Assembly: GCA_019187225.1 (NCBI GenBank)
Contig: JABAQQ010000023.1
Coordinates: 186,001 to 250,000, forward strand
Reading direction: 5' to 3'
DNA: 64,000 nucleotides
DNA from: Saprospiraceae bacterium
GTDB taxonomy: Bacteria; Bacteroidota; Bacteroidia; Chitinophagales; Saprospiraceae
This document shows positions 25,729 through 56,646 of this stretch, in pieces. Position numbers and translations under genes: made by a program. Every line of letters begins with the position of its first letter. Position 1 is the stretch's first letter. The notes below the pieces were generated by a model. It saw only the letters and a program-made list of their open reading frames with translations, did no database searches and was not told the DNA's origin.

Positions 25729-25740
25729 ACACTTTTGAGA

Positions 25741-27663: not shown

Positions 27664-27667
27664 AGCA

Positions 27668-29149: not shown

Positions 29150-29172
29150 TTCACGCTTAAACCTTTGAAAAT

Positions 29173-30255
29173 ATGGCAAATGCGGAACATTTGGCGATTT
29201 TGAAGCAAGGGGTGGAGGTGTGGAATAAGTGGAGGGAAGAGAATAAAGACATTAGGCCGGATTTATCAAACAGCAACCTTTCCGGCGCCCGTTTATCAGG
29301 AATTTATTTGTCTGGAGCAGATTTGTCTGGATCACATTTCTCTGATGCCGATTTATCGAAAGCGTACCTTTCCGATGCCGACTTATCGGGGGCATTATTG
29401 AGAAATGCTTACCTGGTCAGAGCCCACCTGCCTGGAGCCAACCTATCGGGAGCTGACATGCATAATATCAATTTGTCTTGGTCTAACATATCTTATTCCA
29501 GCTTAGCTTATGCCAATCTATCCAGTGCATCACTTTTTCGCACCGACCTAACCGGCGCAAATTTGACTGGAGCTAATCTAACCGGCGCCAATCTAACCAG
29601 CGCTTCTTTACTAGAAACTAATCTAACAAATGCAAATATTCAAGGGGCTAATATATATGGAATATCTGTTTGGGATATAAAAAAGGATCGTATAATTCAA
29701 AAAGATTTGGTAGTTACTAAACCTAATGAGCCAACCATTACAGTGGATGACCTCGAAATCGCCCAATTCATCTACCTCCTTCTCAACAACCAAAAATTCC
29801 GCGATGTCATCGAAACCGTCACCTCCAAAGCCGTTCTGATTTTAGGCCGCTTTACCGACGAACGGAAAAAAGTGCTCGACGCCATCCGGGAAGAACTGCG
29901 CAACCGCAATTTCCTGCCTATACTTTTTGATTTTGAAAAACCGGCTACCCGCGACCTGACCGAAACCATTTCTATTTTGGCGAAGTTGTCGCGCTTTGTT
30001 ATTGCCGACCTGACCGATGCGAAGAGCATACCGCAGGAATTAAGCCATATCATTCCGTTTATGCCCAACCTGCCGGTTATTCCTATCATTTTGCAGGGGC
30101 AGCGGAAATACGCCATGTTCGAGCACTGGCGTCCTTATCCCTGGGTTTTACCGATTTACGAATACGAAAACGAGGGGCATTTAATTTCTACTTTGTCGGC
30201 AGAGGTTATCGAACCGGCGGAGAGGAAGGTGCAGGAGATACGGGGCATAAAATAA
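29173..30255 (+). CDS. pentapeptide-repeat protein with C-terminal TIR-like domain
   Basis: The 360-aa protein begins with a short helical segment. About 25 pentapeptide repeats of the A(D/N)LSG type follow (about residues 33-165), forming a right-handed quadrilateral helix. From about 195 onward is an alpha/beta domain with AVLILGRFTDERKKVLDAI, FLPILFDFEKPATRDLTE, RFVIADLTDAKSIPQEL and PVIPIILQG. That pattern recalls TIR-like folds in defence proteins, but a NADase Glu is not securely identified. The repeat half is AT-rich and the C-terminal half GC-rich, pointing to a fusion. It lies 23 bp after hsdM, so a defence role is plausible. Confidence 0.8.
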   Translation: MANAEHLAILKQGVEVWNKWREENKDIRPDLSNSNLSGARLSGIYLSGADLSGSHFSDADLSKAYLSDADLSGALLRNAYLVRAHLPGANLSGADMHNINLSWSNISYSSLAYANLSSASLFRTDLTGANLTGANLTGANLTSASLLETNLTNANIQGANIYGISVWDIKKDRIIQKDLVVTKPNEPTITVDDLEIAQFIYLLLNNQKFRDVIETVTSKAVLILGRFTDERKKVLDAIREELRNRNFLPILFDFEKPATRDLTETISILAKLSRFVIADLTDAKSIPQELSHIIPFMPNLPVIPIILQGQRKYAMFEHWRPYPWVLPIYEYENEGHLISTLSAEVIEPAERKVQEIRGIK

Positions 30256-34886: not shown

Positions 34887-34926
34887 TGATTGCGGATTGC
34901 GGATTGCGGATTGCAGATTGCAGATT
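34887..34926. repeat. GATTGCGGATT word array upstream of hemH
   Basis: Five head-to-tail copies of ATTGCGG/ATTGCAG words lie directly before the hemH start, the same family as 30377-30413. Confidence 0.7.
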
Positions 34927-35099
34927 TTTGCGGTCAGTTAACTAAAAAAAGCAGGCAATGTTCGGGAAAAGATTTTTTTTGCAGGAGAAACCGCACGGCG
35001 AGCATTTATCTTTACCGCGCTCACGAGCTGGGCAAATTTTCAAAAAAGCACCTGAATGCACGACAGGCACCCATCGTTGACACGGAAAAAAGCAGATTG

Positions 35100-36398
35100 A
35101 TGAAAAAAGGACTACTTGCGTTTTTGTTGCTTGGCAACCTGTTTGACCTCGCCGCACAAGCCCCGCCGGGATTGAAAACCCTTGTAAACCAGATGGCCGA
35201 TGCCATTGAGCCGAAAGTGATCGAATGGCGGCGCGATTTTCACCGCTATCCCGAATTGTCGAACCGGGAATTCAAAACCGCGGAAAAAGTAGCGGCGCAC
35301 CTGAGCGCGCTGGGCATGGAAGTGCGCACCGGTATCGCCTACACCGGCGTGGTGGGTATTTTGAAAGGCGGCCAACCCGGCCCGGTCATCGGCCTGCGCG
35401 CCGACATGGATGCGCTTCCTGTCGCGGAGCGCGTGGAACTGCCCTTCAAATCGGTGGCAAAATCCACCTACAACGGCGAAGAAGTGGACGTCATGCACGC
35501 CTGCGGCCACGATACGCACGTGGCCATCATGATGGGCGTGGCCGAGATCCTGGCGGCCATGAAAAACGAGTTGGCCGGCACGGTGGTGTTCGTCTTTCAA
35601 CCCGCCGAAGAAGGCCCGCCCGAAGGCGAGGAAGGAGGTGCGCCGCTGATGATAAAAGAAGGCGTGCTCGACAACCCCAAAATCGAGGCGATGTTCGGAC
35701 TGCACATCAATTCGCAGACAGAAGTCGGCAAGATCGCCTACCGCAGCGGCGGCATCATGGCGGCGTCCGACTGGTTCTACATCGAGGTGCACGGCAAACA
35801 AACGCACGGCTCGCAACCCTGGAGCGGGGTTGACCCCATCGTGATATCGGCAGAGATCATCCAGGGTTTGCAAACCATCGTCAGCCGGCAGATGGACCTC
35901 ACGGAGCAGCCTGCGGTGGTCACGGTGGGCAAGATCAGCAGCGGCGTGCGCGCCAACATCATCCCCGAACTGGCCGAAATGATAGGCACGATCCGGACGC
36001 TCGACACGGCCATGCAGCGCAAGATCCACCAAAAGGTCAAACTGACCGCCGAAAAGATCGCCGAAAGCGCGGGCGCCCGCGCCGAGGTGCGCATCGAGAA
36101 CAAAACCCCTGTCACCTTCAACGATCCTGCGCTGACAGCGAGGGTGTTGCCTTCGCTCCGCGACGCGGCGGGCAGCGACCAGGTGGAGGAAGTGAAAGCC
36201 CGCACCGGCGCGGAAGATTTCGGCTTTTTTGCGCAAAAGGTGCCCTCGTTTTACTTTTTCCTGGGCGGCATGCCCAGGGGCAAAAAGCGGGAAGATGCTG
36301 CGGCGCACCACACGCCCGATTTTTACATTGACGAAAGCGGGATGAAATTGGGCGTACGTGCTTTTTGTTACCTGGTACTGGATTATTTCGGGAAATAG
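35100..36398 (+). CDS. secreted M20-family amidohydrolase
   Basis: The ATG at 35100 gives MKKGLLAFLLLGNLFDLAAQ, a signal peptide; upstream in-frame sequence comes from the repeat region. The 432-aa protein is an M20D amidohydrolase (hippurate / IAA-amino-acid hydrolase type) with metal ligands in HACGHDTHVAIMMG (about 138-150), FQPAEEGPPEGEEGG (about 171-185), GLHINSQTEVG and the final ligand His in AAAHHTPDF. The dimerisation domain lies at about 215-330. It would remove acyl groups from N-acyl amino acids in the periplasm; the substrate is unknown. Confidence 0.93.
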   Translation: MKKGLLAFLLLGNLFDLAAQAPPGLKTLVNQMADAIEPKVIEWRRDFHRYPELSNREFKTAEKVAAHLSALGMEVRTGIAYTGVVGILKGGQPGPVIGLRADMDALPVAERVELPFKSVAKSTYNGEEVDVMHACGHDTHVAIMMGVAEILAAMKNELAGTVVFVFQPAEEGPPEGEEGGAPLMIKEGVLDNPKIEAMFGLHINSQTEVGKIAYRSGGIMAASDWFYIEVHGKQTHGSQPWSGVDPIVISAEIIQGLQTIVSRQMDLTEQPAVVTVGKISSGVRANIIPELAEMIGTIRTLDTAMQRKIHQKVKLTAEKIAESAGARAEVRIENKTPVTFNDPALTARVLPSLRDAAGSDQVEEVKARTGAEDFGFFAQKVPSFYFFLGGMPRGKKREDAAAHHTPDFYIDESGMKLGVRAFCYLVLDYFGK

Positions 36399-36410: not shown

Positions 36411-37661
36411 ATGTTGCCGGCCCAATTGAACAAGGTTTTCAGCCGCCACTTCGGATTCCAGCACCTCACGCCCGAAGAAATCGAACACCGCACGCTTGCG
36501 TTGACGATCATCGTGCTCATTACCCTGCTGGATTTCACCTACAACCTGGCATTTTACCTGTTCGGCGGACGCTTTACGTGGTGGACAACGGTCATCTATT
36601 TCCTCGCCAGTACGATCAACCTAGTAATTTTTAAGATAAAGGGCAATTTCCGGCGTTTTCGCAACATCCAGATCGTGCTCACTATCCTGCTGCCACTGGT
36701 AGCCCAGATCACGCATGGTGGATTCACCGGTAGCAGCGGCGTGGTGCTGGCAGCGTTTCTGGCGCCCCTGGGCACGCTGATGTTCGCCCGGGTGCGCACG
36801 GCAAGACTTACTTTTTTCGCCTACCTGTTCGCCTTGCTCGTAGCGGGCGTTTGGGAATATCTCGCGCGGCCCGACCCCAACAACCTGCCGCCGGAAGTGC
36901 ACCTGATGTTCTTCGAGTTCAATTTCGCCTTCACCGCCGCCGTCGCGTATTTTCTGATGGAAGGTTTTCTGAAAAACAAAGCGGCCCTGCTCAAACTCGT
37001 CCGGGAAGAACACGAGATCGCCGACCGGCTGCTGCTCAATATTTTTCCGGAAGAAACGGCGCGCGAACTGATGGAAAAAGGCTCGGTAAAAGCCAAAAAC
37101 TACCCGGCAGTCACGGTGATGTTCACAGATTTTGTCGGCTTTTCAGCCTTCGCCCGCACCCTGAGCGCCGAGGCGTTGGTGGAGCAACTCGATTTTTATT
37201 TCAACGCTTTCGACGACATCATTTGCCGACACGGTCTGGAAAAGATCAAGACCATAGGCGACAGTTACATGTGCGCCGGCGGTATCCCGACGCCGCGGCC
37301 CGACCATGCTTTCGCCGTCCTGGATGCAGCGCTTGAAATCCGCCAATTCGTTGTCAGTCAACGGCAACAAAAAATTGAACAGTATAACTATCCATTCGAA
37401 ATCCGCATCGGCATCCATACCGGGCCAGTGGTGGCGGGGGTGGTGGGCAGCAGCAAAATGGCCTACGACATCTGGGGCGAAACAGTCAACATCGCCGCCC
37501 GCATGGAACAAACCTGCGAACCCGACAAAATCAATATTTCTGAAGCGGCTTACGCCCTCGTAAAAGACCAATTTGAATGCATCTACCGGGGGCGTTTCCC
37601 GGCCAAACACGTCGGGGAGATTGAAATGTATTATGTTTACGAAAGATTTTATGAAATCTGA
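36411..37661 (+). CDS. membrane-bound class III adenylate cyclase
   Basis: The 416-aa protein has about six membrane helices (about 30-185), a short linker helix (LVREEHEIADRLLLNIFPEETARELMEKG) and a class III cyclase domain (about 228-400). The metal-binding Asp residues lie in MFTDFVGFSAF and IGDSYMCAGG. The adenine-specifying Lys is in LEKIKTIGD and Asp in MAYDIWGETVNIAARM, with the transition-state Asn and Arg in VNIAARME. This indicates ATP, not GTP, as substrate. It ends just before polX. Confidence 0.93.
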   Translation: MLPAQLNKVFSRHFGFQHLTPEEIEHRTLALTIIVLITLLDFTYNLAFYLFGGRFTWWTTVIYFLASTINLVIFKIKGNFRRFRNIQIVLTILLPLVAQITHGGFTGSSGVVLAAFLAPLGTLMFARVRTARLTFFAYLFALLVAGVWEYLARPDPNNLPPEVHLMFFEFNFAFTAAVAYFLMEGFLKNKAALLKLVREEHEIADRLLLNIFPEETARELMEKGSVKAKNYPAVTVMFTDFVGFSAFARTLSAEALVEQLDFYFNAFDDIICRHGLEKIKTIGDSYMCAGGIPTPRPDHAFAVLDAALEIRQFVVSQRQQKIEQYNYPFEIRIGIHTGPVVAGVVGSSKMAYDIWGETVNIAARMEQTCEPDKINISEAAYALVKDQFECIYRGRFPAKHVGEIEMYYVYERFYEI

Positions 37662-37680
37662 CGCCCACCAGTCCACCGAC

Positions 37681-39345
37681 ATGACCAACAAACAAATTGC
37701 CAACGCATTCGACGAACTCGCCAACCTCATGGAACTCCACGAGGAGGATGATTTTCGCATCCGCTCGTACCGGAATGCTTACCTGAACCTGCGCAAACTC
37801 GACCGGCCGCTGGCCGATATGTCGGACGCGGAGATCAAGGACATCAAAGGCGTAGGGCCGGCGATCGCAGGGAAGATCCGTGAACTGGCGGCGGGCGGCA
37901 AAATGGCGACCCTGGAAAAATACCGCGAAAAAACGCCGCCCGGCGTGGTGGAAATGCTGGAAGTCAACGGCTTCGGGCCCAAAAAAGTCCGCATCGTGTG
38001 GAAAGAAATGGGCGTCGAGACGGTCGGCGAACTCTGGTATGCCTGCAACGAGAACCGCCTCGTCGAATTCAAGGGATTCGGCCTGAAAACCCAGGAAGAC
38101 CTCAAAAACAAACTCGAATACTTTCTCAAAAGCCGCGACAAACTCCACCTTGACGCCGCCGAAGAAGAGGCCGATTTTATCTGCACCTGGCTCACGGGTA
38201 AATTGCCCGGCGCGCGCGTGGCACCGGTGGGCGAACTGCGGCGTCGCTGCCCGGTGATTGACCAATTGGAAATACTGGTGGGCTACGACGGCGATGTACC
38301 GGCGGCTTTAGCCGCCGACGAAGTTATTCAAATCGCCGAATCGCCGGAAAGTTCGGCGGCTAAAGCCGCCGGTACGCTTAGGGTTCGTCTGGAGAACAAT
38401 ACTTCGGCATTGATACATTGCTGCAATCCGGCTGAATTTGGCTCCAAGTTATTCAAATACACGGGCAGCGCAACCTTCGTGGAAGGTTTTGCCAAAACGA
38501 ATCCGGGGCTCGATTTTAAAAACCTGGAAACCGAACAAGCGGTGTTTGAAAAAGCGGGCGCAGCGTATGTGGCGCCGGAATTGAGAGACACCCCCTACCC
38601 TCCACCCTCCACCCTCAAACTCCAACTCATTGAAGACCAAAACCTTAAAGGGATTCTCCACGTCCACACCACCTGGAGCGATGGACTGCACAGCCTGCGC
38701 GAGATGTGCGAATACACCCGTTCGCTGGGCTACGCCTATATCGGCATCACCGACCACAGCCAGTCGGCTTTTTACGCCAATGGTTTGAAGCCCGACCGGG
38801 TGCTGGCCCAAATGGAAGAAATTGACCGTTTGAACGAAGAACTGGCGCCGTTTCGGATCTTTAAGGGCATTGAGAGCGATATCCTGAACGACGGCTCGCT
38901 TGATTACGAAGACGCTGTGCTGGAAAAATTCGATTTCGTGATCGCCTCGGTACACTCCAACCTGAAAATGACCCGCGAAAAAGCCACCGAGCGGGTGGTA
39001 CGCGCCATCGAAAATCCTTATACCACCATCCTCGGCCACCCTACCGGTCGCCTGTTGCTCAGCCGCGAGGGTTATCCGCTCGACTGGGATGCCGTATTCG
39101 ACGCTTGTACCCGCTGCAAAGTCGCCATCGAACTGAACGCCAACCCCTACCGCCTCGACATAGACTGGACTTTGATACCCGAAGCCCTGCGACGGGGTAT
39201 TCCCATCAGCATCAACCCCGACGCGCACAGCAAAGACGGCATCCACGATACGCGCTACGGCGTGATGGTGGCGCGCAAGGGTGCGCTCACAGTGGATGGG
39301 TGCCTGAATGCCAAAAGAGCGGAGGAATGGCGACCAAAGAAATGA
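37681..39345 (+). CDS. polX: PolX-family DNA polymerase / 3'-5' exonuclease (HhH and PHP domains)
   Basis: The ATG at 37681 gives MTNKQIANAFDELANLMELHEED, the usual PolX start, for a 554-aa protein; ATGs at 37633 and 37651 overlap the cyclase gene. Helix-hairpin-helix motifs (IKGVGPAIAGKI, VNGFGPKKVRIVW) precede a beta-type polymerase region (about 160-300). The PHP phosphoesterase has metal ligands in LHVHTTWSDGLHS, ITDHSQSAF, HPTGRLL and NPDAHSKDG. PolX enzymes fill gaps in base-excision and mismatch repair. A 23-bp palindromic repeat pair (38296-38375) is inserted in frame in the polymerase region. Confidence 0.92.
   Translation: MTNKQIANAFDELANLMELHEEDDFRIRSYRNAYLNLRKLDRPLADMSDAEIKDIKGVGPAIAGKIRELAAGGKMATLEKYREKTPPGVVEMLEVNGFGPKKVRIVWKEMGVETVGELWYACNENRLVEFKGFGLKTQEDLKNKLEYFLKSRDKLHLDAAEEEADFICTWLTGKLPGARVAPVGELRRRCPVIDQLEILVGYDGDVPAALAADEVIQIAESPESSAAKAAGTLRVRLENNTSALIHCCNPAEFGSKLFKYTGSATFVEGFAKTNPGLDFKNLETEQAVFEKAGAAYVAPELRDTPYPPPSTLKLQLIEDQNLKGILHVHTTWSDGLHSLREMCEYTRSLGYAYIGITDHSQSAFYANGLKPDRVLAQMEEIDRLNEELAPFRIFKGIESDILNDGSLDYEDAVLEKFDFVIASVHSNLKMTREKATERVVRAIENPYTTILGHPTGRLLLSREGYPLDWDAVFDACTRCKVAIELNANPYRLDIDWTLIPEALRRGIPISINPDAHSKDGIHDTRYGVMVARKGALTVDGCLNAKRAEEWRPKK
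38296..38375. repeat. in-frame palindromic repeat pair within polX
   Basis: Bases 38296-38318 and 38353-38375 are perfect 23-bp inverted repeats built on CGGCGGCTTTAGCCGCCG, itself nearly palindromic, with a 34-base spacer. It is a repeat type usually found between genes, but here translates as PAALAADEVIQ ... ESSAAKAAGTLR within polX. Confidence 0.85.
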
Positions 39346-39357: not shown

Positions 39358-40584
39358 TCAATGAATCAATAACACCGATTCGTACTTTTGTCTATCCGCC
39401 AAACGCAAAAATCCGTATCCGATGCCTGCCATTCCGAGCATCATGCCAGGTGAATTGAATTCGCTTTGCGTGCCATTGGGAAAGGGTACCTTCCGGCGTT
39501 CAAATTGTTCGATTGCCTCCACAGCCCTTTCTTCAACCTGACGGATAAACTTTTCGTCGCCGGTTACCTCCGAAGCGCAGAGCAGCACATCCGCATTGCC
39601 GAAAAGACCATGGCAGAGGCTGAAATTTCCCAAATGTTTTTGGCCAAAATACCGCAACGTTGTGTTCGCGGCTATTTGCCCTGATTTCACAAACATTTCA
39701 TTTTGTGTAAGTTGATACGCCCGAAACCGGGACAGACCTATGCCGGGTGCGCCGTGACACCAAGCGCAGCCACACAGCCGGGGCGTATCTTCACGCTGGC
39801 GCATGGTTTTACTTTCCCGGAAATCGGGCCAGTTTTCCTGCTCCGCGTCGAAACAGGATTCTTCATAATCGAAACCTGCAAGGGCCGCTTTTTGATACTG
39901 TTCTTCCTGCGTGTGATGGTACAATTCGAGTAAGGCGCCGGCAATGCCCGCCGCACCATGCGCATAGCCGGTCAGGTTAGCGGCCGAGCCGTACGGCATG
40001 GTGTTCCAGGAAATCCCCTTTTGTTCCGCTTGGGCCTGTTGCACCAGATAATGGCCCATTTTGTGGAGCAATTCGTCCAAAACACCTTCCCTGTATCGGC
40101 GATTGAGCCGGATAATTGCGGGAATGGCGCCCGCGCAACCATCAATCACATCTAATGTATATTCCGATTCAGGCAATTGGTTGAGGCTTCGAAGTATTTG
40201 AAGTCCCCGCTCGATCAGGTTGCTTTGATCGAATTTTTCTCCGATTTCCACGGCGGCAAAAGCGATCCCGGTCAGCCCGGAATGGAAGCCTGATTTGCCA
40301 TGTTGAATATTATCGCCTGTTTGCAGCGCTTGTTCGATGGCGCCGAGGGCGACGGCGCGATGGCGCCTGTCGCCGGTTGTGCTGTGGAGTTGGGCCAAAA
40401 ACCAGGCGATGCCCGATGTGCCATTGTACCAGGTACCTTTCAACGCTGCGTAATAGGGCCTGGGTTTTTCCCCCACAATGTCATTATCGGCGCCTATCCA
40501 ATTGTACTGATTGTTGTAGTTGAGTGCATCGCGGCATAAAGCATTGCCTATGCTGACGGCTGTATTCAAAAATTCTGTTTGCAT
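39358..40584 (-). CDS. LanC-family lanthionine cyclase of the RiPP operon
   Basis: The 408-aa protein has the LanC alpha-barrel pattern of GxxG motifs (SGFHSGLTGIAFAA, AHGAAGIAGALLELY, PGMMLGMAGIGYGFLRL). The zinc ligands are Cys in CAWCHGAPGIGLSR (about 273) and Cys-His in SLCHGLFGNADVLL (about 323). LanC enzymes activate Cys thiols and add them to dehydroalanine or dehydrobutyrine to close (methyl)lanthionine rings. It is a stand-alone cyclase and the last gene of the operon, six bases after the HopA1-type lyase. It converges on polX with a 12-bp gap. Confidence 0.93.
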   Translation of the reverse strand: MQTEFLNTAVSIGNALCRDALNYNNQYNWIGADNDIVGEKPRPYYAALKGTWYNGTSGIAWFLAQLHSTTGDRRHRAVALGAIEQALQTGDNIQHGKSGFHSGLTGIAFAAVEIGEKFDQSNLIERGLQILRSLNQLPESEYTLDVIDGCAGAIPAIIRLNRRYREGVLDELLHKMGHYLVQQAQAEQKGISWNTMPYGSAANLTGYAHGAAGIAGALLELYHHTQEEQYQKAALAGFDYEESCFDAEQENWPDFRESKTMRQREDTPRLCGCAWCHGAPGIGLSRFRAYQLTQNEMFVKSGQIAANTTLRYFGQKHLGNFSLCHGLFGNADVLLCASEVTGDEKFIRQVEERAVEAIEQFERRKVPFPNGTQSEFNSPGMMLGMAGIGYGFLRLADRQKYESVLLIH

Positions 40585-40590
40585 GGTTTT

Positions 40591-41601
40591 TTAATTTTCA
40601 AAAGCAGGAAAATGATACGGGTATTTTGAATTGGGGTTGAGATAAAGCGCCTCCGGGCGCAGGTAGTTTTTCTGAATGTTTTTCAGGATAAAATCTGTCC
40701 AGGCATCTTTTGGCTGCCTGTTATTCCAGGCATCTAAGATGCCCTGCGCTATAATTTTGCAGCGGCTGGTACCGAAACTATCGGTTGAGGAAAATGGATT
40801 TTCCGCGAATCCGATTCCGGGAGCGAGCCGTTTGGTAAACATCGGCACTTCGGCGTTCAAGATGGTTTTCATTTCGGCATAATGTTCTTTGAGCAGATCC
40901 GCAACAACCTGGAAATAACGCTTGTCAATATACAAAACGGCCGCATCACAACGGGTATAAAAGACCTTTCGGTTAAGGCATTTGAATTGGAAAGGAATAT
41001 GGTAGCGATTGAGGTTTTTGGATATCAATGCCACGAGCGAAGCCGCCCCTTCCGGTACCAGGTTAAAATACAGGCGAACGATGGCTGCATTATTGTTGTC
41101 GAGCAGCATCTCTCCGAAAATGAAATAGAACACATCGCCCGTTTCGGGTTCGGCACTGTATTCCGGCACAACTCTGATATTGACCGTTTCGCCGCGCTGC
41201 AGCGGCCCTTGCCCGAAATGCGCGCGAATAAAGTCGCCCGCGTAGGTATAGCGTTTGAAACCGCCCTTGTGCACGAGGATGTTGCCGCCGTGTTCGATCT
41301 CATCCACCGTCCAGCCGCAATCGTAACACTCGGCGGATGCGTTGGCTGTACGGAGCGCCGGAAGAAATGAATCTTCTATCTCGCGATCAATAATATCGTA
41401 TTGTTTCGCCGCCCGGTTCCGGGTATAACAAGCCGAGTAGAGCAGGTTGGTCAGGTTGTGGAAAAGGCTTACCTCTGCGCTCGCTTCGGGGTAATCGTAG
41501 CCTTCATAAAACTCCCCCCGGAAACTGAGTTTACCGGTGGATTCGATATCGACAGCGCTGACAATATACTGTATGTCATCAAGATAAGACGGTGGTTGCA
41601 T
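40591..41601 (-). CDS. HopA1-family lyase-like protein (class V LanY / TvaD-type)
   Basis: The 336-aa protein matches the HopA1 effector-like family across its core: HNLTNLLYSACYTRN (about 48-62), GGFKRYTYAGDFI, VRLYFNLVPEGAASLVALI, YHIPFQFKCLN, CDAAVLYIDKRYF, PMFTKRLAPGIGFAENP and FGTSRCKIIAQGI. In class V lanthipeptide and thioamitide clusters, such a protein removes phosphate from Ser/Thr phosphorylated by a partner kinase, leaving dehydroamino acids. Its ATG overlaps the kinase gene by 23 bases, so the two are translationally coupled. The pairing with the kinase and LanC supports the role; the activity is inferred. Confidence 0.88.
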   Translation of the reverse strand: MQPPSYLDDIQYIVSAVDIESTGKLSFRGEFYEGYDYPEASAEVSLFHNLTNLLYSACYTRNRAAKQYDIIDREIEDSFLPALRTANASAECYDCGWTVDEIEHGGNILVHKGGFKRYTYAGDFIRAHFGQGPLQRGETVNIRVVPEYSAEPETGDVFYFIFGEMLLDNNNAAIVRLYFNLVPEGAASLVALISKNLNRYHIPFQFKCLNRKVFYTRCDAAVLYIDKRYFQVVADLLKEHYAEMKTILNAEVPMFTKRLAPGIGFAENPFSSTDSFGTSRCKIIAQGILDAWNNRQPKDAWTDFILKNIQKNYLRPEALYLNPNSKYPYHFPAFEN

Positions 41602-42715
41602 GATAGGAATTGTGGGTTTGTATGCCCAGCACCTCGCTGATGGCCTCGTCGGCGTGGCGGAGCAGGTTAAGACTGAGTTGCAGGATTTTGGCGCTGTATA
41701 ACGACATGTCTTTTACGCCCTGCACGGATTCGAAGCAGGTATGCACCAATTTCAAGGCTGTATAACGCACGGCTTTTTCCAGGTTTCGATGGGTCGTCGC
41801 GGCATCCCAATTTGCCAGTTCGGCGTAGCGCCGCCAAAAAGCGGCGATGGAAGCTTGCACCGACGCGAGGTTGACAATGAAAGCCTCCTCCGACCGGTAG
41901 TCCTGTCCGATCTCCGAAGCGACCCATAAAGTGAGGTAATTTTGGACAACGGAAGCGACGTCCCACAACGGATCGCCGATGTCGGCCAGTTCCCAGTCAA
42001 TCAGGCGGATATCCGGTTCGCTGCCCGGAAAAAAATCGCTGTTGATCAAAAAGTTGGGGAACTTCACATCACCGTGGACGAGGCTTTTCATTTCCCATTC
42101 TTCGCCCATCTGACGCAGGTGTTCCATAAATTCACGGTTGCCCAGGATGAGTTTTACCGATTGTTTTTCGGCATTGCCCACCGCAGGGTTGTTGAGCCAA
42201 TCGGTCAGATTGTTTTCCGAAAGGGAAAACACCCAGGGTTTGCGTTTTTTGAAAAGCGAAAAACTTTTCTGATTTTCCAGTATACCCGACTGGTGCGTGT
42301 GATAGGAGGACAGCAATTCGGCGAGTTTTTCGGCAACCGGAATTGGGAAAAAGCCTGAATTCCGGTAGGATTCATGCAGGTTTTGTACTTGGGGCAACAA
42401 TTCGAGAATCAGGATATGATTCAGGTAATCGTACTCAAAATAACGCGGCAGGAATCCGCGCAGCGAATGATAGGCATCGTCGTTGTTGGCCAGCCAATAG
42501 CAGGTGGCTTCGATGCGCAGCGTTTCGCGTTTCTCCTGGTCGTGGGCGCGCACCTGTTTTACAAGAAAAGCGGGCGAATACTCGCGGTTGACCGCAAAGT
42601 TGGTGTTGCGGCTCGACCGGTCGCGCACGCTGAATTCCCCTTTTACAATGGATTCGAGGTCAATCAGACCCTTTTCAAGGAGATAATGAGCAATATTTTC
42701 ATAAGAAAGCAGCAC
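41579..42715 (-). CDS. APH-type kinase of the RiPP operon (class V LanK / TvaC-type)
   Basis: The most plausible start is the GTG at 42715 (VLLSYENIAHYLLEKGL, 378 aa); the open frame upstream only overlaps the precursor gene. The phosphotransferase core shows the ATP-binding FLVKQVRAHDQEKRETLRIEA (about 55-75), the catalytic loop LVHGDVKFPNFLI (about 209-221) and the metal-binding DWE in IRLIDWELADIGDPLWDVA. It belongs to the aminoglycoside/choline kinase fold used as Ser/Thr kinases (LanK, TvaC) in class V lanthipeptide and thioamitide pathways. It overlaps the HopA1-type gene and lies 62 bp after the precursor gene, behind a hairpin. Confidence 0.86.
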   Translation of the reverse strand: MLLSYENIAHYLLEKGLIDLESIVKGEFSVRDRSSRNTNFAVNREYSPAFLVKQVRAHDQEKRETLRIEATCYWLANNDDAYHSLRGFLPRYFEYDYLNHILILELLPQVQNLHESYRNSGFFPIPVAEKLAELLSSYHTHQSGILENQKSFSLFKKRKPWVFSLSENNLTDWLNNPAVGNAEKQSVKLILGNREFMEHLRQMGEEWEMKSLVHGDVKFPNFLINSDFFPGSEPDIRLIDWELADIGDPLWDVASVVQNYLTLWVASEIGQDYRSEEAFIVNLASVQASIAAFWRRYAELANWDAATTHRNLEKAVRYTALKLVHTCFESVQGVKDMSLYSAKILQLSLNLLRHADEAISEVLGIQTHNSYHATTVLS

Positions 42716-42742
42716 GGCAGATTGTTTTTTTGGTGAAAAAAT

Positions 42743-42767
42743 CCGGCGGAGCGGAGTGCTCCGCCGG
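42743..42767 (-). terminator. attenuator hairpin between precursors and modification genes
   Basis: Perfect 10-bp inverted repeat CCGGCGGAGC / GCTCCGCCGG with a 5-base loop. Read on the minus strand it is followed by ATTTTTT, so it has the form of a Rho-independent terminator 10 bases past the precursor stop. Partial read-through would make more precursor than enzyme, as in many lantibiotic operons. Confidence 0.8.
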
Positions 42768-42777
42768 GGTGAAAAAC

Positions 42778-43650
42778 TCAATAGCCGTAATTGGCTGTTT
42801 GATACGGGTTGAAGCCGCCGGTGTAACCTCCGCCGCCGGTACAGGCAATCGTCGCCGGAGTTGTCAGTTCGTTGATGTCGTAAGCGCAGGTGCACCACGT
42901 TCTGATCCGCGTCGCAGCAACCCGGAACGTATCTGTTTGCTGGGGTTCGTAGCGACAGTAAAGGAAGTTGCAGGTAACAACGAACTTGCAAGTGTGATTA
43001 TAGTGTGTCGGGGGGCCAAAAGCCTGGACAGCAACATTTTGACAGATATTATTTACTGATCGGCAGATCGCGATAGGATTGCCGCTGATGGTGCAGCCGA
43101 ATTTGCAGGTCGGTTGAACGCAAGTCTGTTTCAAGCATTCGCTGGGCAGTGTAGCCGGAGGTGTCTCAAAGACCTGACATGCAGGATCCAATGCACCGGT
43201 AGGTCCGTGGCATATCTCGAACGGCTCCGAGAATGGCCGGCAGCCTTGTTCAAGAAATGCTGAAGGAAGTTCTCTCGCTACGACCCTGGGAGGCCTGACC
43301 CGTGCCTGGCTTCCAAACGCCTTGATCAAATCGCCTTCCAGAAAAGATGACTTGACCCGGTTGACAAGTTTCGGATCACCGGCAGTAAATACAGTTGTCT
43401 TCCTGACCCATAAGCGGCTGCCGCCGAGTGAGTCTTCTTCAGTACTGACAGGATCGGAATAAAGCACATCTTGTTCCGGTAGTTCAATAAAATCGCTCAA
43501 TGTAGCATCGGAATACACGCGGACGTGCCCCGCAAGGTCGGAATCTCCGATGTATCCTTGCAGCAGCACCAGGTCTTCGGTAGATTTTGGATCGGGTCGC
43601 ACGCTTTTTATGAAGGCATCGCGCCTGATCCTTCTTGATTCAGTGGCCAT
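42778..43650 (-). CDS. giant Cys-rich RiPP (lanthipeptide-like) precursor A
   Basis: The 290-aa protein has no Cys in residues 1-136 and 15 Cys in residues 137-270. The leader (about 11-113: DAFIKSVRPDPKST, LLQGYIGDSDLAGHVRVYSD, SDFIELPEQDVLYSDPVST, SSFLEGDLIKAF) matches that of precursor B at about 86 of 103 positions by eye. The core diverges almost completely (PTCKFGCTISG, TCKFVVTCNFLYC, WCTCAYDINELTTP). The end GGGGYTGGFNPYQTANYGY resembles that of B. This leader/core/tail pattern next to a kinase, lyase and LanC marks it as a modification substrate. It is far longer than ordinary lanthipeptide precursors. No signal peptide is seen. Confidence 0.8.
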   Translation of the reverse strand: MATESRRIRRDAFIKSVRPDPKSTEDLVLLQGYIGDSDLAGHVRVYSDATLSDFIELPEQDVLYSDPVSTEEDSLGGSRLWVRKTTVFTAGDPKLVNRVKSSFLEGDLIKAFGSQARVRPPRVVARELPSAFLEQGCRPFSEPFEICHGPTGALDPACQVFETPPATLPSECLKQTCVQPTCKFGCTISGNPIAICRSVNNICQNVAVQAFGPPTHYNHTCKFVVTCNFLYCRYEPQQTDTFRVAATRIRTWCTCAYDINELTTPATIACTGGGGYTGGFNPYQTANYGY

Positions 43651-43700
43651 AATCAGGATTTGTGGTTTTTAATGTGTGAAAAAAAATTTGATGAATAAAA

Positions 43701-43716
43701 GAATAGTGCACTATTC
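43701..43716 (-). promoter_or_regulatory. palindromic operator upstream of precursor A
   Basis: GAATAGTGCACTATTC is a perfect 16-bp palindrome 50 bases before the precursor A start. The core AGTGCACT recurs at 44709-44716, at a similar distance before precursor B. On the minus strand it follows TATGTTGA, a poor -7 box, so it may lie at a transcription start. Confidence 0.6.
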
Positions 43717-43761
43717 GTCAACATATCAATCCCTTTGGACAAGGGAGTAGTCAATCATCCA

Positions 43762-44661
43762 TCAATACCCGGTCGTGGTGTAAGGATTGAAACCGCCGGC
43801 GTAGCCAGTCAGCGCAGCAGCCTGATTGACTGCCGCTTGCTGATAAAGAATCGTGATTTCAGTTTGGCAGGCAATGCTCGGGCAGGCGCCGAAAGTCGGA
43901 CACTCAGGATTCGTCGGACAGGCTAAAGTCGGGCAAACCACTGCAACAGAAGGGCATCCTAATTTGGTAGGACAGCCGGCAGGTTGCGATGCACATACCG
44001 GAACCGACGGAGGACAGGTTTCAGTCCGGATGCCGCACAACGCCGGGGCCGTACAGGCAACTCCGCATGTCCTGAAACACGACGGTTGGTTGGTACAGGT
44101 CGCCTGCATTACGCTTGGAATGTTGCAGGGTACCGGCAATGTTTTGGGACAGCACAAACTTGCCCGGGTTAACGGACAGATGGGCGCAACCAAACTTGGC
44201 TGGGTGCAAGGCGTGCCAATTTGCGATACACAACAGGATTTCGGTCTGAACGAAGTATTGCACACGGTGATGAAAGTCGGCAATACCGCCGGCAACACTA
44301 CTGCCGGAACATTCATCGTATCGCCGAAGGCTTTCATGATATCGCCTTCCAGGAAGGAGGATCTCACGCGATTGACCTGGTTCGGGTCGCCGGCAGTGAA
44401 TTCTGCCGTCTTTCTGACCCACAAACGGCTACCGCCGAGCGGGTCTTCTTCGGTACTGACAGGGTCGGAGTAGAGAATATCCTGTTCCGGCAGTTCGATA
44501 AAATCGCTCAGCGTGGGATCAGAATACAATCGAATGTGGCCCGCCAGGTCGGATTTGCCGATGTAGCCTTGCAGCATCACCAGCGCTTCTGTGGATTTGG
44601 GGTCGGGTCGTACGTTTTCAATAAAAGCATCGTACCGGACCGCCTTTTTGGGTGCAGGCAT
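43762..44661 (-). CDS. giant Cys-rich RiPP (lanthipeptide-like) precursor B
   Basis: The ATG at 44661 gives MPAPKKAVRYDAFIENV, 299 aa; an ATG at 44715 lies within the operator. No Cys occurs before residue 134; 22 Cys lie between 134 and 265. The last part of the core is a quasi-repeat of Cys-Pro-Thr/Ser (CPTKLG, CPSVAVV, CPTLA, CPTNPE, CPTFGA, CPSIAC) with Cys every 5-7 residues, well suited to serial (methyl)lanthionine rings. The leader is shared with precursor A, and the tail GYAGGFNPYTTTGY has the same GGFNPY motif. It is the first gene of the RiPP operon. Function is inferred from neighbours. Confidence 0.8.
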   Translation of the reverse strand: MPAPKKAVRYDAFIENVRPDPKSTEALVMLQGYIGKSDLAGHIRLYSDPTLSDFIELPEQDILYSDPVSTEEDPLGGSRLWVRKTAEFTAGDPNQVNRVRSSFLEGDIMKAFGDTMNVPAVVLPAVLPTFITVCNTSFRPKSCCVSQIGTPCTQPSLVAPICPLTRASLCCPKTLPVPCNIPSVMQATCTNQPSCFRTCGVACTAPALCGIRTETCPPSVPVCASQPAGCPTKLGCPSVAVVCPTLACPTNPECPTFGACPSIACQTEITILYQQAAVNQAAALTGYAGGFNPYTTTGY

Positions 44662-44942: not shown

Positions 44943-45764
44943 TTATTTTATTTTTTTATGCAACAATTCCTCCATCGCCTCCTGCATCTTCTTCGCCTCT
45001 TCGCGCGCTTTTTCGGCAAAATCTTCGCCGCCAGAAGCATAAATGATGCTGCGCGAAGCATTGATCAGCAAGCCGCAATCCCGGGTAAGGCCGTTTTTAC
45101 AGATGGCTGCCAGATCGCCGCCCTGAGCCCCCACGCCAGGCACGAGCAAAAAACTGTCCGGCGCAATTTCGCGGACGCGGATAAAAGCGTCGGGATGCGT
45201 GGCGCCCACCACGAACATCAGGTTGGCGGGACTCCCCCACCCTTGCGCGACCCGCATCACTTTTTCCCATACCGCTTCCCGGCTGTCTTCCAGCCAGTCG
45301 CGCTGAAAATCATTGCTGCCTTTGTTGGACGTCAGCGCGAGCAGGATCACCCATTTGCCTTCGAAACCGAGAAAAGGCGTCACGCTGTCCTCACCCATGT
45401 AAGGCGCCACCGTGACGGCGTCGAAGTTCATTTTTTGGAAAAAGGCTTCGGCGTACATCCGGCTGGTGTTGCCGATGTCGCCGCGTTTGGCATCGGCGAT
45501 GATAAAGTGTTCATGGCCAATGTAATCCACCGTTTTTTGAAGGGTTTGCCAACCGGCAGGCCCCAAACGCTCGTAGAAAGCCAGGTTGGGCTTGTAAGCC
45601 ACACAGAGATCGCGCGTGGCGTCAATGATGCGGCGGTTGAATTCGAGGATCGGGTCCTCGTGACGGAGCAGGTGTTGTGGTATTTTGCCCAATTCAGTGT
45701 CGAGGCCGACGCAGAGGAACGTTTTTTTGCGAAAAATTCCGGAGATGAGTGTGGCGCGGTTCAT
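44943..45764 (-). CDS. pyrF: orotidine 5'-phosphate decarboxylase (type 2)
   Basis: The ATG at 45764 gives [24 protein letters not shown], 273 aa; an in-frame ATG at 45851 overlaps the terminator of the upstream gene. Motifs of type 2 OMP decarboxylase are present: [28 protein letters not shown], the catalytic [18 protein letters not shown] (about 91-108), [12 protein letters not shown] and [12 protein letters not shown]. It makes UMP in the cytosol, the last step of pyrimidine synthesis. It is monocistronic, with terminators on both sides. Confidence 0.95.
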
Positions 45765-45792
45765 GGTGCGAAGGTAGAAAAGGCCATAAAAA

Positions 45793-45824
45793 AACCGCCC
45801 TCCCCTGTTACGGGAAGAGCGGTT
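45793..45824 (-). terminator. terminator after the giant adhesin gene
   Basis: On the minus strand AACCGCTCTTCCC and GGGGAGGGCGGTT form a 13-bp stem (a few G-U pairs), followed by TTTTTTAT, 36 bases past the stop codon at 45861. Confidence 0.8.
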
Positions 45825-45860
45825 GAGTTTTTTTAAGGCAATAAAAAGCAACCGAAGGTA

Positions 45861-48800
45861 TTAACGGACGAGAAGTATAGACTTCACTTCCGTCTCATTG
45901 TCTGCTTCCACGCGCAGGAAATAAGTGCCGGCGCTCACGCCCCCGGCATTCCAGCGCAGGGTGGTCGGGCCATCCAACACACCGTTGTACACCGTAGCGA
46001 TTTCCTGACCGTATGCGTTCCAAACGACCACACGGGCATTGGAAGCGGCGGGTACGTTGATATCAATGTTCAAAACATCGCTGAACGGCTGCGGATACGC
46101 TTTTACTTCAAAAGGACCGGTTTTGGTGCCACCGCCGGGCAGGATTTTGTCCACCGGATTGCCATTGAAGTCGTCGCCACAACCGGCTACGAAGAAGCTC
46201 ACCGAACCCTGGTCGGCTTTCCCGGCAACGTCGTCGCGCAGGGCGCCGATAACGATATTTTTCTTGTAAATATCGAGTGCCGAACCAAACTGATCATTTT
46301 TATCGCCCTGGTTGTCGTACAGTTTTGCAGCGTATTCCCAGAAACCGTTTTGCTGGCGTTCCCAAATGTAAGCGGCGCCGGAGTTGGAGCCTTTGTGGTT
46401 GTCGAAACGGGCGCCTGCGATGGCAAAATTGCCATTCACGGCGACGGCAAAACCGAGTTGGTCATTGGCAGTACCGTCTTCGGCCAGCAGTTTCACGGCT
46501 TGTCCCCAGTTGTTGGTTCCGCCTGCGTTGCGTTCGAAAATGTACGCCGAGCCGGAATTAGAGCCTTTGTCGTCGTTCTGGTTGGCGCCTACGATGACAA
46601 TGTCAGCACTGATACCCACGCTGGTTCCAAAGTTGTCGAGGGCTGCACCATCGTTGGCAAGCAGTTTTTTCAACTGTCCCCAGGCGTTTGCACCGCCCTG
46701 GTCTTTGCCAAACAAGTAAGCAGCACCGGCGTTCATGCCCTTTTCATCTTCTAATGCCGCGCCCACAACTGCAAGGTCGCCGTCGAGCTTGAGGCTGGCG
46801 CCGAACATGTCGCCTGCGCCGGCGTCAACAGCGGTGATCTTGGCAATCTGGCCCCAATTGTCTGTGCCGCCCTCATTTTTGCCGAACAGGTAAGCAGCGC
46901 CTGCATTCAGCCCCTTTTCGTCGTTCATGCTGGCGCCCACGAGCACTTTGTCGCCATAAACACTCACTGCAGCGCCAAAATTGTCGTCTGCAAAACCGTC
47001 ATTTGCCTTGATCTTTTTGACCAGGTCCCACGTATTATTGGAAGTATTTTTGGCAAAAATGTAAGCAGCGCCGGCATTGGAAGCCTGGTCGTCATCCTGC
47101 GGAGCACCCACAACGATCAGGTTGGAGTACACGGATACACTTGCGCCGAACAAATCTTCCGCTTCTACGTCGCCCGGGTTGAGTACTGCCACCTGCTGCC
47201 AATCGTCGGGATTGTTATCATTGTTCTGCAATACATAAGCCAGGCCGGAATTGGAACCGTTGCCATCGGCGTTTTTGGCTCCTACGACCGCATAGCTGCC
47301 GTTCATGGCCACGCTTGCGCCATAGAGGTCGCCGGTTTGTCCGATGTCCGCCATTTGTTTGTCTGACTGACGCCAGGAGTCGTCCGTTTCATCCACAAAA
47401 CCGTCGCAGTCGTCGTCGAGACCGTTGCAGATCTCCGGCGCCAGTTCCACGACGATGCAGAATTTGCACATTGTCTGGTTGCCGGCGGCATCGGTAGCAG
47501 TCACCATGACCGTTGTATTGCCAACAGAGAACAAGCCGTTTTCAGAAGGCGGCCATTCGCTGTAATGGATCTCAACGCCGGGGCAGTTGTCGGTAGCGGT
47601 GGCTTCGTATTCCACGGCTGCCTGGCAGAACAGGTTCGGATCGTTGATCGTGTAGATATCTTCGGGGCAGATGAGCAACGGCGGTTGGTAGTCTTTCACC
47701 GTAATGGTTTGCTGACAGGTCGCGTCGTTGCCGGCAGCGTCCACAGCCGTCCAGGTGATGGTGGTGACGCCGACGGGATAAACCGGCCCCGTAACGTCAT
47801 CGTTCGTCAGGCTGGCGATGCCGCAGTTGTCGGTAGCGCTTGCCGTGCCGATGAAGGCGATGGTGGCCGAGCACTTGTTGATGTCGTTGTTTTTAACGAT
47901 GTTGTTCGGGCAGGTGATGCTCGGATTTTCATTGTCGAGCACGATCACGTTGAAGCTGCAGGTAGCCATGTTGCCCGAAGCGTCGGTGGCTTTGTAGATC
48001 ACCGTCGTCGTGCCCACATCGAAGAGCGAACCGCTCGCCATGCCGCTGACAAAGGTCACCACCACACCGGGACAGTTGTCGGAAGCCGTTATCTTGGGCC
48101 AGGTGACGACCGCGCCGCACACGCCCGGATCATTCACGACCGTGATGTTAGCCGGGCAGTTGTTGAATACCGGCGGCTGCACGTCGAGTACGGTAACCGT
48201 GAAGCTACAGGTAGACATATTGCCTGCGGCATCGGTTGCTTTGAAAACGTTGGTCGTGGTGCCCACAGGGAAGAAGGAGCCACTGGGCAGTCCCGCAATT
48301 TGTTCGATCGTCACGCCGGGGCAGTTGTCACTGAAGGTCGGCGTCGCATAGGTGACGATGGCGCCGCACTGGTCCGGGTCGTTGTTTTTCACAATATTCG
48401 CCGGGCAAGTGATGGTTGGCGGTTGCACATCGTTCACCGTGACGGTAAAGCTGCAGGTAGCAGTGTTGCCCGACGCGTCGGTCACCTGCCATACGTTGGT
48501 GGTCGTGCCGACCGGGAAAAACGCGCCGCTGGGCAAGCCGCTTATCAGCATGATGCTGGCGCCCGGGCAGTTATCGCTGAAAGTTGGCGCCGGATAAGTG
48601 ACGTTGGCGCCGCACTGGTTCGGAGTATTGCCTACGGTGATGTTGTTCGGGCAGGTGATCACCGGCGCTTCGTTGTCGTTCACCGTGATCGAGAAACTGC
48701 AGGTCGTGCTGTTGCCCGACGCGTCGGTGGATTGGTAAGAGATCACCGAAGTTCCTTTCGGGAATGCGGAGCCGTTGGGCAGGCCGCCGGTTTGTTCCAA

Positions 48801-51800
48801 AGTGGGCACGTCGCAGTTGTCGTGGGTAGTAGGGGTGGACCAGTTGACCACCGCAGAGCAAAGGCCCGGATCAGTGTCCATCACGATGTCGAACGGACAG
48901 GAAAGATAGGGCGGGTCATTGTCCACCACAGTGATCGTGAATGTGCAGGATGCAGAGTTACCCGAAGCGTCGGTAGCCTGGAATCCAACCACATTGACAC
49001 CCAATGGGAACGCCGAGCCGCTGGGCAAGCCGAGTATCTGTTCCGGATTGGCAGAGCCGGAGCAGTTGTCGGGAGCCACCGGGCACATGAACATGGCGAC
49101 TGCCGTGCAGGTATTCGGGTCGGTGTTCAAGGTCACGCTGGGCGGGCAGGTGATGACCGGCGGGGTGACGTCAACTGCATAAGCTTCCATCACACAGGTG
49201 GCCGTCAGACCGGGTCCATCCGTCACCGTGAGCGTAACGAGGGTCTGACCGAATCCAACCAGCGTACCGGCAACCGGACTTTGCGTCACGAGGAAACCGC
49301 CGCAGTTGTCGGAGGCGTTCGCGAGACCCGTGAAGTCAGGCAATGGTGTTTGGCAATCGTCATCGGCATCAAAATACTGCGGGTCGGGACATTCGATGGT
49401 AGGCGGCGTCATGTCGTCGGCAGTGGTCTGGAAAGAGCACGTGCTGGCATTGCCGGCGGCGTCGGTCACGGTCATTACAATCGTCAGGAAACCGGCGCTG
49501 ATGGAACCCGGAGCAGGATCCTGGGTGACCGAGAGGTCTGCATCGCAGTTGTCGTTTGCCACTACCAGGCTCGTGTAGTCGGCAGTTGCCACCTGGCAGT
49601 TATCATCCGTGGTAACCGCTACATTGGGCGGACAAACACTGATTTCCGGTGCATCGTCGTCCGAAACAATAACATTGAATTCGCAGTTGCTGATATTACC
49701 TGCGTCATCCTGAGCGCTGAAGCTGACCAAAGTGGAGCCCAGGTCAAAAACGGAACCGCTTGCCGGACCTCCGGTTTGTGTGATGGCCACATCATTGTCG
49801 CAGTTGTCGGTAGCGACAAGGTCAAAAGTAGCGACGCCACTGCAGGCTCCGCCGCTGGTGCCTACTTCCACGTCCGCACAATTGGAAAATTCCGGAGCCG
49901 TTTCATCCGATAAAGTAACGGTGATCGAACAAGTGGAAGAATTGCCGGCATCGTCGGTCACTGTAAAAACTACTGTTGTATTTCCGCTGATAATGCTTCC
50001 GGACACCGGAGATTGTTCCACTGTACCGCTACCGCAGTTATCGGTGAATGCCACAGAACCGGTATAATCGCCCAATTCAGCCACGCAGTTGGCATCAGCC
50101 AGCAACGTCTGGTCGCTGCCGCAATCGGATATAAGAGGCGCCTCGTCATCGGCATAAGTAAACGACCACTCCGGGCAGCCGGTGGCTTCGCCGAGAGCGT
50201 TTTTAGGTACAATTTTCCAATAATAACTGCCATAGGTGAGTGCCCCCGCATCATAAGAGGTGCCCGTCACATTGGCCACCAGCGGCGGGTTAGGCGACGT
50301 ACCGAAGTAGACATCGTAGCTCGTCGCAGCAGGCTCAGCCGGCCAGGAGAGGGTGGTAGCACCCGAGGGCGGGCAGTCAGAACTACCGTCGGCCGGAGCG
50401 GAAGGTGCGGCAAGGCAGGATACTGACTGCAGCAACTGAATGTCATCTACATACAGGTAGAACTGATTGGTAATGGAATAAGCGTGAAAACCGAGATAGT
50501 ACGTGCCTGAAGACGGAGCGGTGAAATCAACCGAAGCATTTTGCACCACGTTGCCTGTAATATTGGGGAAATCAAGCAGGGTAGTGGTCATCGCGCCTGC
50601 AGACGGGGATGTACCCAGGGCAACTTTCATTTTCTCGGTATAGCTGGTGCTGTTGTTGCCGTACTTAAAGGTCAGCCGGTAGGTCGAGCCTGCTGTCATA
50701 TCTATGCCGCGGGTATAGAACCAGTCGTCGGCAGGCAGGCTGACATTATAGGTATAGCGCAGTGTGATGCCCGTATATCCCGTTGGAGCAGTAACCGTAG
50801 TCCATGTTGATCCACCGTTCAAATCCTCTCTGCTCGTACAGGCAGGAAGGTTGGGAGTGGTAGCGCCGTTGAAGTTCTCCGTATAAGGCACACCTGTCGG
50901 CGTACAAGCAGTCGTAAACGAAATTTTGGGGCTGTTTGCACTGTACATACCTCCACAATCCTGCCGGATGTATACGTCGTAAGTTGTTGCGGAATTCAGA
51001 CCCGTCAGGGCAATAGGCGATGCGCCTCCGGTAACAATCGCACCGCCAGCACCGGGAGAGCCGCCGGCCCCAGGAGTGTTGAACGGTGCCACGCCATATT
51101 CTACGATGTAACTTCCCGGACAACCGTTGCAGGAAAAATTCACATCAGCAGAAGTGGTGGAAATGTTGGAAATAGAATTGAGAGAGGGTGCAAAGCAAGA
51201 CGGAGGCGTCCAGGAAAAGGTAGTACCTGACGTCGGCGGATTAGCCGTGTTGACAAATGTACAACTGCTGGTATTGGCCGTCCCTGCAATAGTATTGTTC
51301 CAGTCATGCGGCGCCACCGTAGCGCGGTTGTTAAAATCAGTTGATGCCGTACCACCCATTCCGACGTGCGCCGTACTCGAAGTAGTATTAAATACCATGG
51401 TACCCCACACGATTTCCACGGTCTGGTCAGTTGCGACTCCACCGGCTTCATTCAGCCGGATTTGAAAAGTCAGATTATGCCCCGTACCTGCCGTGCCGTA
51501 ACGCTTGTAGTTCGTCCACTGCACCACAAAGGTCCGGAAAGGAGCGCCGCCGATCGTTTCAATGCGCAATTCCGCACCGGTTTGAGCCTGTAAATCTGCA
51601 CCTAAAACAGCGACACGGCTGCGAAGGTAAGCTGGCGTATTCGCTGCCGTCGAACTCAGAGGCGTATAAGAGCTGGTAGTATTCATGTCCACCGACGGCG
51701 ACAAAGCGGACTGCCCCAGCGATATCCAGCCATTGTTGTTGATACCCACCCGGTCGAAGTCTATCCCGTTGTAGTTGAACGTAAAACCGATGGGAAATCC

Positions 51801-56543: not shown

Positions 56544-56571
56544 AAAACAAAGTAGTCTGATTAACAATTTG

Positions 56572-56611
56572 AGTGGTGGCACGGCCTCGGGCTTTGCCAC
56601 CACTGTTTTTT
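56572..56611 (+). terminator. terminator after the TPR gene
   Basis: AGTGGTGGCA (56572-56581) and TGCCACCACT (56595-56604) form a perfect 10-bp stem followed by GTTTTTTT. Confidence 0.85.
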
Positions 56612-56646
56612 TGTATAACTTCGCGACAACCAACCGTATTGATCAC

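Follow-up and report, generated by a model that had tools for sequence, protein, structure and literature searches.

A five-gene operon on the minus strand of a 64,000-nucleotide stretch of DNA from a Saprospiraceae bacterium (assembly GCA_019187225.1, contig JABAQQ010000023.1, positions 186,001 to 250,000; hereafter the window) in all likelihood makes class Vb-type lanthipeptides from two giant precursors, which could carry up to 22 and 15 rings and whose leaders would recruit the modifying enzymes. The operon spans 39358-44661 and runs from precursor A through precursor B, a hairpin, an APH-type kinase and a HopA1-type lyase to a stand-alone LanC cyclase. Judged from sequence, the operon very probably forms lanthionine by class Vb chemistry. 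This reading is based on gene content, homology, active-site positions, the asymmetry between leader and core, the spacing of Ser/Thr and Cys residues, and the recurrence of the kinase, lyase and cyclase triad in other genomes.

In the mechanism we propose, the kinase would phosphorylate Ser/Thr residues throughout the long precursor cores. Phosphate elimination by the HopA1-type lyase would leave dehydroalanine or dehydrobutyrine, and each Cys would then be added by LanC to a dehydro-residue N-terminal to it, in many cases at a distance of 5-6 positions. The yield would be up to 22 (methyl)lanthionine rings in precursor A and 15 in precursor B. Recruitment of the enzymes would fall to the folded leader together with its terminal FLEGD(I/L)xKAF.

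Kinase, lyase and cyclase genes

The genes for the LanK-like kinase (41579-42715, minus strand; 378 residues, GTG start), the LanY-like HopA1-family phospho-Ser/Thr lyase (40591-41601, minus strand; 336 residues) and the LanC cyclase (39358-40584, minus strand; 408 residues) are tightly packed, with a 23-bp overlap between the first two and a 6-bp spacer between the last two. An earlier reading of this DNA from its letters and open reading frames (ORFs), the sequence-only reading, had described five same-strand genes with these coordinates and junctions, all of which we recovered. Its naming of the three enzymes also held, agreeing both with the Pfam matches (kinase, APH, 3.5e-10; lyase, HopA1, PF17914, 7.5e-38; cyclase, LANC_like, PF05147, 3.2e-67) and with the active-site residues.

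The kinase motifs HGDxKxxNF and DWExAxxGD are invariant across 7 homologues, and the kinase profile matches a solved kinase, chain A of 9dk1 (1.2e-5). Chain B of that same entry (3.5e-11) and HopA1 itself are the solved relatives of the lyase, in which R176, K207, R217 and Y224 are invariant across 7 homologues. These residues correspond to R187, K219, R229 and Y236 of CaoY, with spacings of 31/10/17 here and 32/10/17 there. In CaoY, K219A abolished lyase activity, R187A nearly did so and R229Q was inefficient, while Y236 is a conserved residue of the active site (PMC9486802).

The cyclase carries the zinc-site motifs AHG, WCHG and LCHG, and its best solved relative is LicM2 (1.5e-23). Its WCHG and CHG residues, which we take to be zinc ligands, align with those of LicM2 and LANCL2. 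The best-scoring NCBIfam model is the LanM model TIGR03897 (290 bits, cut-off 304), of which the protein covers only positions 546-931 of 932; no class II dehydratase domain is fused to it. Kinase, lyase and cyclase are three separate genes and not the single chain of a class III or IV LanKC or LanL. Neither a LanX-type second APH protein nor a flavoprotein of the kind that forms S-aminovinyl-methylcysteine was found in the five genes or the scanned flanks (36411-39345 and 44943-52040), and Pfam found no decarboxylase, reductase, transport, protease or tailoring gene among the five. With an APH-type kinase, a HopA1-type lyase bearing the CaoY active-site residues and a stand-alone LanC with zinc-site motifs, the operon would belong to class Vb.

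Precursor leaders, cores and Ser/Thr-Cys spacing

Precursor A (43762-44661, minus strand; 299 residues, 22 Cys) and precursor B (42778-43650, minus strand; 290 residues, 15 Cys) match no Pfam family at E<=1. Each consists of a leader of 113-114 residues (44320-44661 in precursor A, 43312-43650 in precursor B) followed by a variable core, which in precursor A is Cys/Thr-rich and occupies 43762-44319. The asymmetry is clear from the nearest named operon, L029, which belongs to a metagenome-derived Saprospiraceae genome and shares 78% kinase identity with the window. There, the counterpart of precursor A is identical at 92/118 leader positions and 62/153 core positions, and that of precursor B at 88/117 and 73/164, respectively. 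Between the two operons, 15 of 22 Cys are retained in precursor A and 10 of 15 in precursor B.

We aligned 35 members of the leader family, which extends to Acidobacteriota, Bradyrhizobium and Chloroflexota and, in the second profile round, to Enhygromyxa. None of the 35 leaders could be assigned to a catalogued leader family such as the proteusin/NHLP type (best NCBIfam match 0.0026, best Pfam match 0.083). A model of the leader, with a predicted local distance difference test (pLDDT) score of 85.9, has seven strands and two helices; in the PDB it had no convincing structural match (best E 0.21) and no sequence relative (best 0.59). Both window leaders end in FLEGD(I/L)xKAF, as FLEGDIMKAF in precursor A (44326-44355, minus strand) and FLEGDLIKAF in precursor B (43315-43344, minus strand), and a looser pattern, [FY][FLSA]xG[DNEKQPATS][LIVM], is present in 31 of the 35. 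We propose this leader end as a candidate recognition motif. A similar motif closes a different N-terminal domain in Flavobacterium precursors and is present in three to four copies along those of Arcicella, Flavisolibacter and Taibaiella. The Flavobacterium domain was modelled at a pLDDT of only 63.8 and had no convincing PDB match (best 0.021, template-modelling score about 0.2), so we claim no fold for it. At the other end of the chain, precursor A closes with the conserved tail GGFNPYTTTGY (43765-43797, minus strand) and precursor B with GGFNPYQTANYGY (42781-42819, minus strand); the tail pattern occurs in 10 of 67 precursors, namely two each from the window, L029 and L030 and one each from L031, L032, L033 and L092, the last being the one carrier that lies outside the clade. 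On a plasmid of Deinococcus sp. QL22 (L118), an unannotated ORF at 4922-5696 has a leader that resembles the family by eye, with FLQGTMVSNAM, and is followed by genes for a kinase, for HopA1 and LanC together and for an S8 peptidase; the gene table of the collection that holds this plasmid is incomplete.

The cores are arranged as ring formation would require. A Ser/Thr of its own, 2-8 residues upstream, can be assigned to 22/22 Cys in precursor A and 14/15 in precursor B, and shuffled sequences paired as well in 0/1000 and 3/1000 cases, respectively. With every precursor taken together, such pairing works for 1963 of 2048 Cys, against 1516 in reversed sequences. Since pooled z-scores are inflated by repeats, we preferred tests per precursor and per taxon group, using 38 groups whose labels we assigned ourselves. 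A Ser/Thr lies 5 or 6 residues before Cys in a mean of 64.8% of cases (67 precursors), whereas the mirror positions downstream of the Cys hold one in 30.5%; the direction holds in 56/67 precursors and 34/38 groups, and the window's two precursors give.64 vs.27 and.60 vs.20. The 67 precursor ORFs were picked by a script using length, Cys content and position, and at least one of them, that from L073, was retained even though it resembles a shadow frame. The sequence-only reading had inferred very large, multi-ring lanthipeptides, and the enzyme assignments, active sites and leader/core anatomy all support that proposal.

Relatives and competing explanations

The triad recurs far beyond the window. 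Among 396 genomes sampled from the order, HopA1 occurs in 6, at 7 loci, and kinase and LanC genes adjoin it at 7/7; among 395 genomes sampled from the phylum, the only one with HopA1 is the window's own. The kinase profile led to 76 loci, of which 68 have kinase, HopA1 and LanC complete, on one strand and in that order; in three of these, L095, L098 and L100, a single ORF covers both kinase and HopA1. The eight incomplete loci comprise four at contig edges (L034, L043, L078, L096), two partial kinase matches (L103, L104), and L068 and L069. By record title, the 68 complete loci come from Bacteroidota, Acidobacteriota, Pseudomonadota, Myxococcota, Cyanobacteria and Planctomycetota; the sequence-only reading, which placed the system in Bacteroidota, had drawn its limits too narrowly. 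On viral contigs, neither precursor A nor the kinase had a confirmed relative.

A Cys-rich ORF (>=90 residues, >=10 Cys) lies upstream in 61 of the 74 HopA1-bearing loci, which are 71 of the 76 together with L015-L017. The medians are 434 residues and 31 Cys per locus, the maximum is 97 Cys (L051) and the longest ORF has 1119 residues (L047). Duplicates were dropped before counting (L012, L013, L014 and L028, equal to L047, L030, L035 and L031, respectively), and precursor counts exclude the HopA1-less loci L043, L068, L069, L103 and L104 as well as one unlikely ORF in L097. The tree of the loci omits L032 and L101, whose genes are incomplete or interrupted. In this tree, a gammaproteobacterial triad from Rahnella sp. 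AA (L066) is nested within a Bacteroidota clade, a placement that suggests horizontal transfer. In four alphaproteobacterial loci (L095, L096, L098, L100), kinase and HopA1 matches share a single ORF, which suggests a fused dehydratase. In the genome G382, a precursor-like ORF of 114 residues with four CCWI(V/L)(V/L)ATTGC(S/T)T cores (L015, 12257-12601) stands beside a divergent triad, and the same genome carries a second triad, L016.

Several observations weigh against a class Vb-type lanthipeptide operon. The NCBIfam model of the class V kinase LxmK matches the window's kinase at 8e-13 and 48 bits, against a cut-off of 315; profiles found neither HopA1 nor LanC beside two kinase relatives from Myxococcota (L068, L069); and no export or leader-removal gene was detected by Pfam among the operon's five. 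The cores are Ser/Thr-rich and, when reversed, those of the window still pair 20/22 and 12/15 Cys, which leaves the window by itself with a small directional excess. The rule of 5 or 6 residues is contradicted by 11/67 precursors and by 4/38 groups (Sphingomonas, Bradyrhizobium stylosanthis, Enhygromyxa and locus a of G382), and in Flavobacterium the excess is near zero (+0.05).

The alternative that survives best concerns the final product and is compatible with the proposed chemistry: the window precursors might be polyproteins, modified by the same enzymes with the same rings, whose core an unlinked protease cuts into several small lanthipeptides. We regard this as possible but rather unlikely for the window. 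Its appeal comes from relatives, many of which have near-repeated cores separated by linkers, and from a protease gene that adjoins the precursor or operon in 25/74 loci (after LanC in Rahnella). Of these proteases, 18 are kumamolisin/S53-like, a label of our own, 3 are S8 and 4 are papain-like C1. When 8 of the 25 were compared with Pfam, all 4 kumamolisin-like examples matched Peptidase_S8, three of them together with Pro-kuma_activ (two above cut-off), two S8 examples matched Peptidase_S8 well and two matched Peptidase_C1. Among the 61 loci with a precursor, the precursor contains AQAQ at least twice in 16/18 loci that have the kumamolisin-like protease, compared with 1/43 without it (Fisher p 1e-11). 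The loci with this protease fall in one FastTree clade (support 1.000), so the association largely reflects one origin and we discounted its p value as independent evidence; the clade also holds L064 and L094, the latter a short contig, where no such protease was found, but not L101, a locus omitted from the tree. Relatives that combine linkers with a neighbouring protease probably do cut a polyprotein into smaller lanthipeptides. In the window cores, no repeated linker or core was seen by eye; the Pro-kuma propeptide domain was not found in the genome, where the operon protease of L033 has relatives only at 1.8e-6 and 4.2e-6, both away from the operon. Because neither core shows a repeated linker and the operon has no protease, we lean towards a contiguous, large multi-ring chain as the product of the window.

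For the window and its relatives, we consider it conceivable, although doubtful, that their products are protein-sized, regularly stapled, rod-like cross-linked chains that stay with or on the cell and are not small antibiotics. The triad would then be steered to tens of rings, on chains with up to 97 Cys, by the folded leader, which some lineages would supply in trans as a protein of its own. In a metagenome-assembled Saprospiraceae genome (IP29b_bin.23), the precursor at 8734-9825 of L035 (= L014) has a core with Cys every 6 residues over thirty consecutive intervals, a periodicity that points to a regular, rod-like fold. In eleven loci, nine from Kordia (L048, L054, L055, L057, L060, L061, L065, L070, L093) together with L056 and L016, the leader has its own gene ahead of the core gene, possibly a natural case of a leader acting in trans. 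When the leader profile was run against 12 genomes, 11 having operons without an adjacent leader and one a Kordia control, only the control matched; the remaining lineages thus rely on different leaders or have none.

It is very unlikely that the enzymes only dehydrate, or that the dehydro-residues serve ends other than lanthionine (S-aminovinyl-cysteine, reduction or adducts). The kinase/HopA1 pair is indeed tied to dehydro-residues and S-aminovinyl-cysteine in thioamitides and others (PMC7794033), but here a LanC with intact zinc-site motifs is part of the operon, a LanC occurs in 68/76 loci, the five genes offer no decarboxylase or reductase for such ends, and the Cys spacing suits rings.

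Leader and triad were also compared across genomes. Seven of 398 genomes of the family bear the leader, 6 of them at E<1e-6, and in 5 of these 6 the triad is adjacent to it. In the sixth, G1032 (82% complete), the contig ends after the precursor and HopA1 was not found in the assembly; the seventh, G044, has a weak match (0.006) and no HopA1. In the class sample, 2/395 genomes match the leader, the window's own and that of the L077 organism (G1225), and both have the triad. That the precursors are unmodified metal-binding or disulfide proteins and mere neighbours of the enzymes is the least likely explanation of all: high Cys content is common in such proteins generally and G1032 has the leader gene without a detected HopA1, but this adjacency, the truncated contig of G1032, the conserved leader beside a variable core and the directional Ser/Thr spacing all argue against it.

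The gap between precursor B and the kinase holds a terminator-like hairpin (42743-42767, minus strand) of 10 pairs, 9 of them G-C, followed by ATTTTTT. Reported by the sequence-only reading, the hairpin proved real: the stretch folds at a z score of -4.67 relative to shuffles. Terminator-like sites overall are not enriched (8 here vs 7.9 in shuffles), and this is the strongest stem by far; it may yield more transcript of the precursors than of the enzymes. The operon has a G+C content of 51.5%, near the window's 53.6%, and lies between a polX-like gene with HHH and PHP domains and an orotidine-phosphate-decarboxylase gene. The Pfam scan of the window covered 35 ORFs, with 56473-59640, 60411-62477 and 62479-63411 among the regions outside it. 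It found an S8 subtilase (4818-6566) and an M20 peptidase (34890-36398), neither in the operon; the earlier statement that the window has no protease was thus not literally correct. As a maturation protease we rejected the S8 subtilase, which is ~33 kb distant and absent from the matches of the L033 operon protease. C39 peptidases were matched twice in the genome, both times on other contigs; presence in the genome is the sole support for these matches as operon partners, and they are candidates only. Elsewhere in the window are molybdenum hydroxylase/CO-dehydrogenase-like genes with maturation genes (7177-21151), a type I restriction system with genes resembling HsdR, S and M and, after it, a pentapeptide-repeat protein (23332-30255) and, near the operon, a 2059-residue protein that carries a secretion-system sorting tail as well as HYR and FG-GAP repeats (45861-52040).

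Relation to known lanthipeptide systems

The class Vb synthetase is defined as LanK/LanY/LanC, exemplified by SmoA with its cyclase SmoC, with Pei et al. 2022 as the cited source, and a 2025 review states that class V is found only in actinobacteria (both PMC12328550). Outside Streptomyces, the kinase/HopA1 pair has been reported mainly from Actinobacteria and Firmicutes, with distant pairs in Cyanobacteria, Planctomycetes and Proteobacteria (PMC7794033), and a LanC survey, in the part of its text consulted, counted lanthipeptide precursors only up to 100 residues (PMC11251773). In titles and the opening lines of abstracts, with most subscription papers outside this scope, no giant or split class V precursors were found. 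If our reading is true, the 100-residue and actinobacteria-only limits hide a family of at least six phyla with precursors several-fold larger. The system would also supply enzymes with the potential to staple a long chain dozens of times, a folded leader that is new, and a natural example of leader and core in separate genes. Cultured hosts of the relatives include Kordia, Flavobacterium and Hymenobacter species, so clear tests are possible.

In Kordia, LanC beside precursors has been described (PMC11118758) and is probably the same system; the available part of that report presents these clusters as LanC with a nucleotidyltransferase and makes no mention of giant or split precursors or, although no search was aimed at this name, of HopA1. 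Two other sources mention Kordia clusters for lanthipeptides or other ribosomally synthesized and post-translationally modified peptides, giving in their accessible portions no details of precursors or of a kinase, lyase and LanC (PMC10734526, PMC7477175). Multi-core microviridin precursors, as far as the excerpted account goes (PMC5934393), resemble the Flavobacterium, Hymenobacter and Kordia relatives in having several cores per chain; the relatives differ in their lanthionine-type enzymes, chains of up to 1119 residues and, in Kordia, a leader encoded by a separate gene.

Class II LanM and class IV LanL share the LanC-fold zinc cyclase, whereas the 408-residue LanC of the window has no fused dehydratase or kinase-lyase domains. 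Class Va (cacaoidin with CaoK/CaoY/CaoX, lexapeptide, pristinin A3) has homologues of the kinase and lyase, with the same lyase residues; the window differs in its LanC cyclase and in an operon without a second APH-type protein or a flavoprotein. The SmoA system of class Vb, in which the kinase and lyase are presumably those named SmoK and SmoY, likewise has an APH-type kinase, a HopA1-type lyase and a LanC cyclase as separate proteins, while the window differs in its Bacteroidota host, in precursors of 290-299 residues with a folded leader and 15-22 Cys, and in an operon without tailoring, transport or protease genes. Because kinase, HopA1 and LanC together are the known class Vb set, the novelty claimed by the sequence-only reading holds for precursors and hosts and not for the enzymes: the new part is the precursor architecture and its spread.

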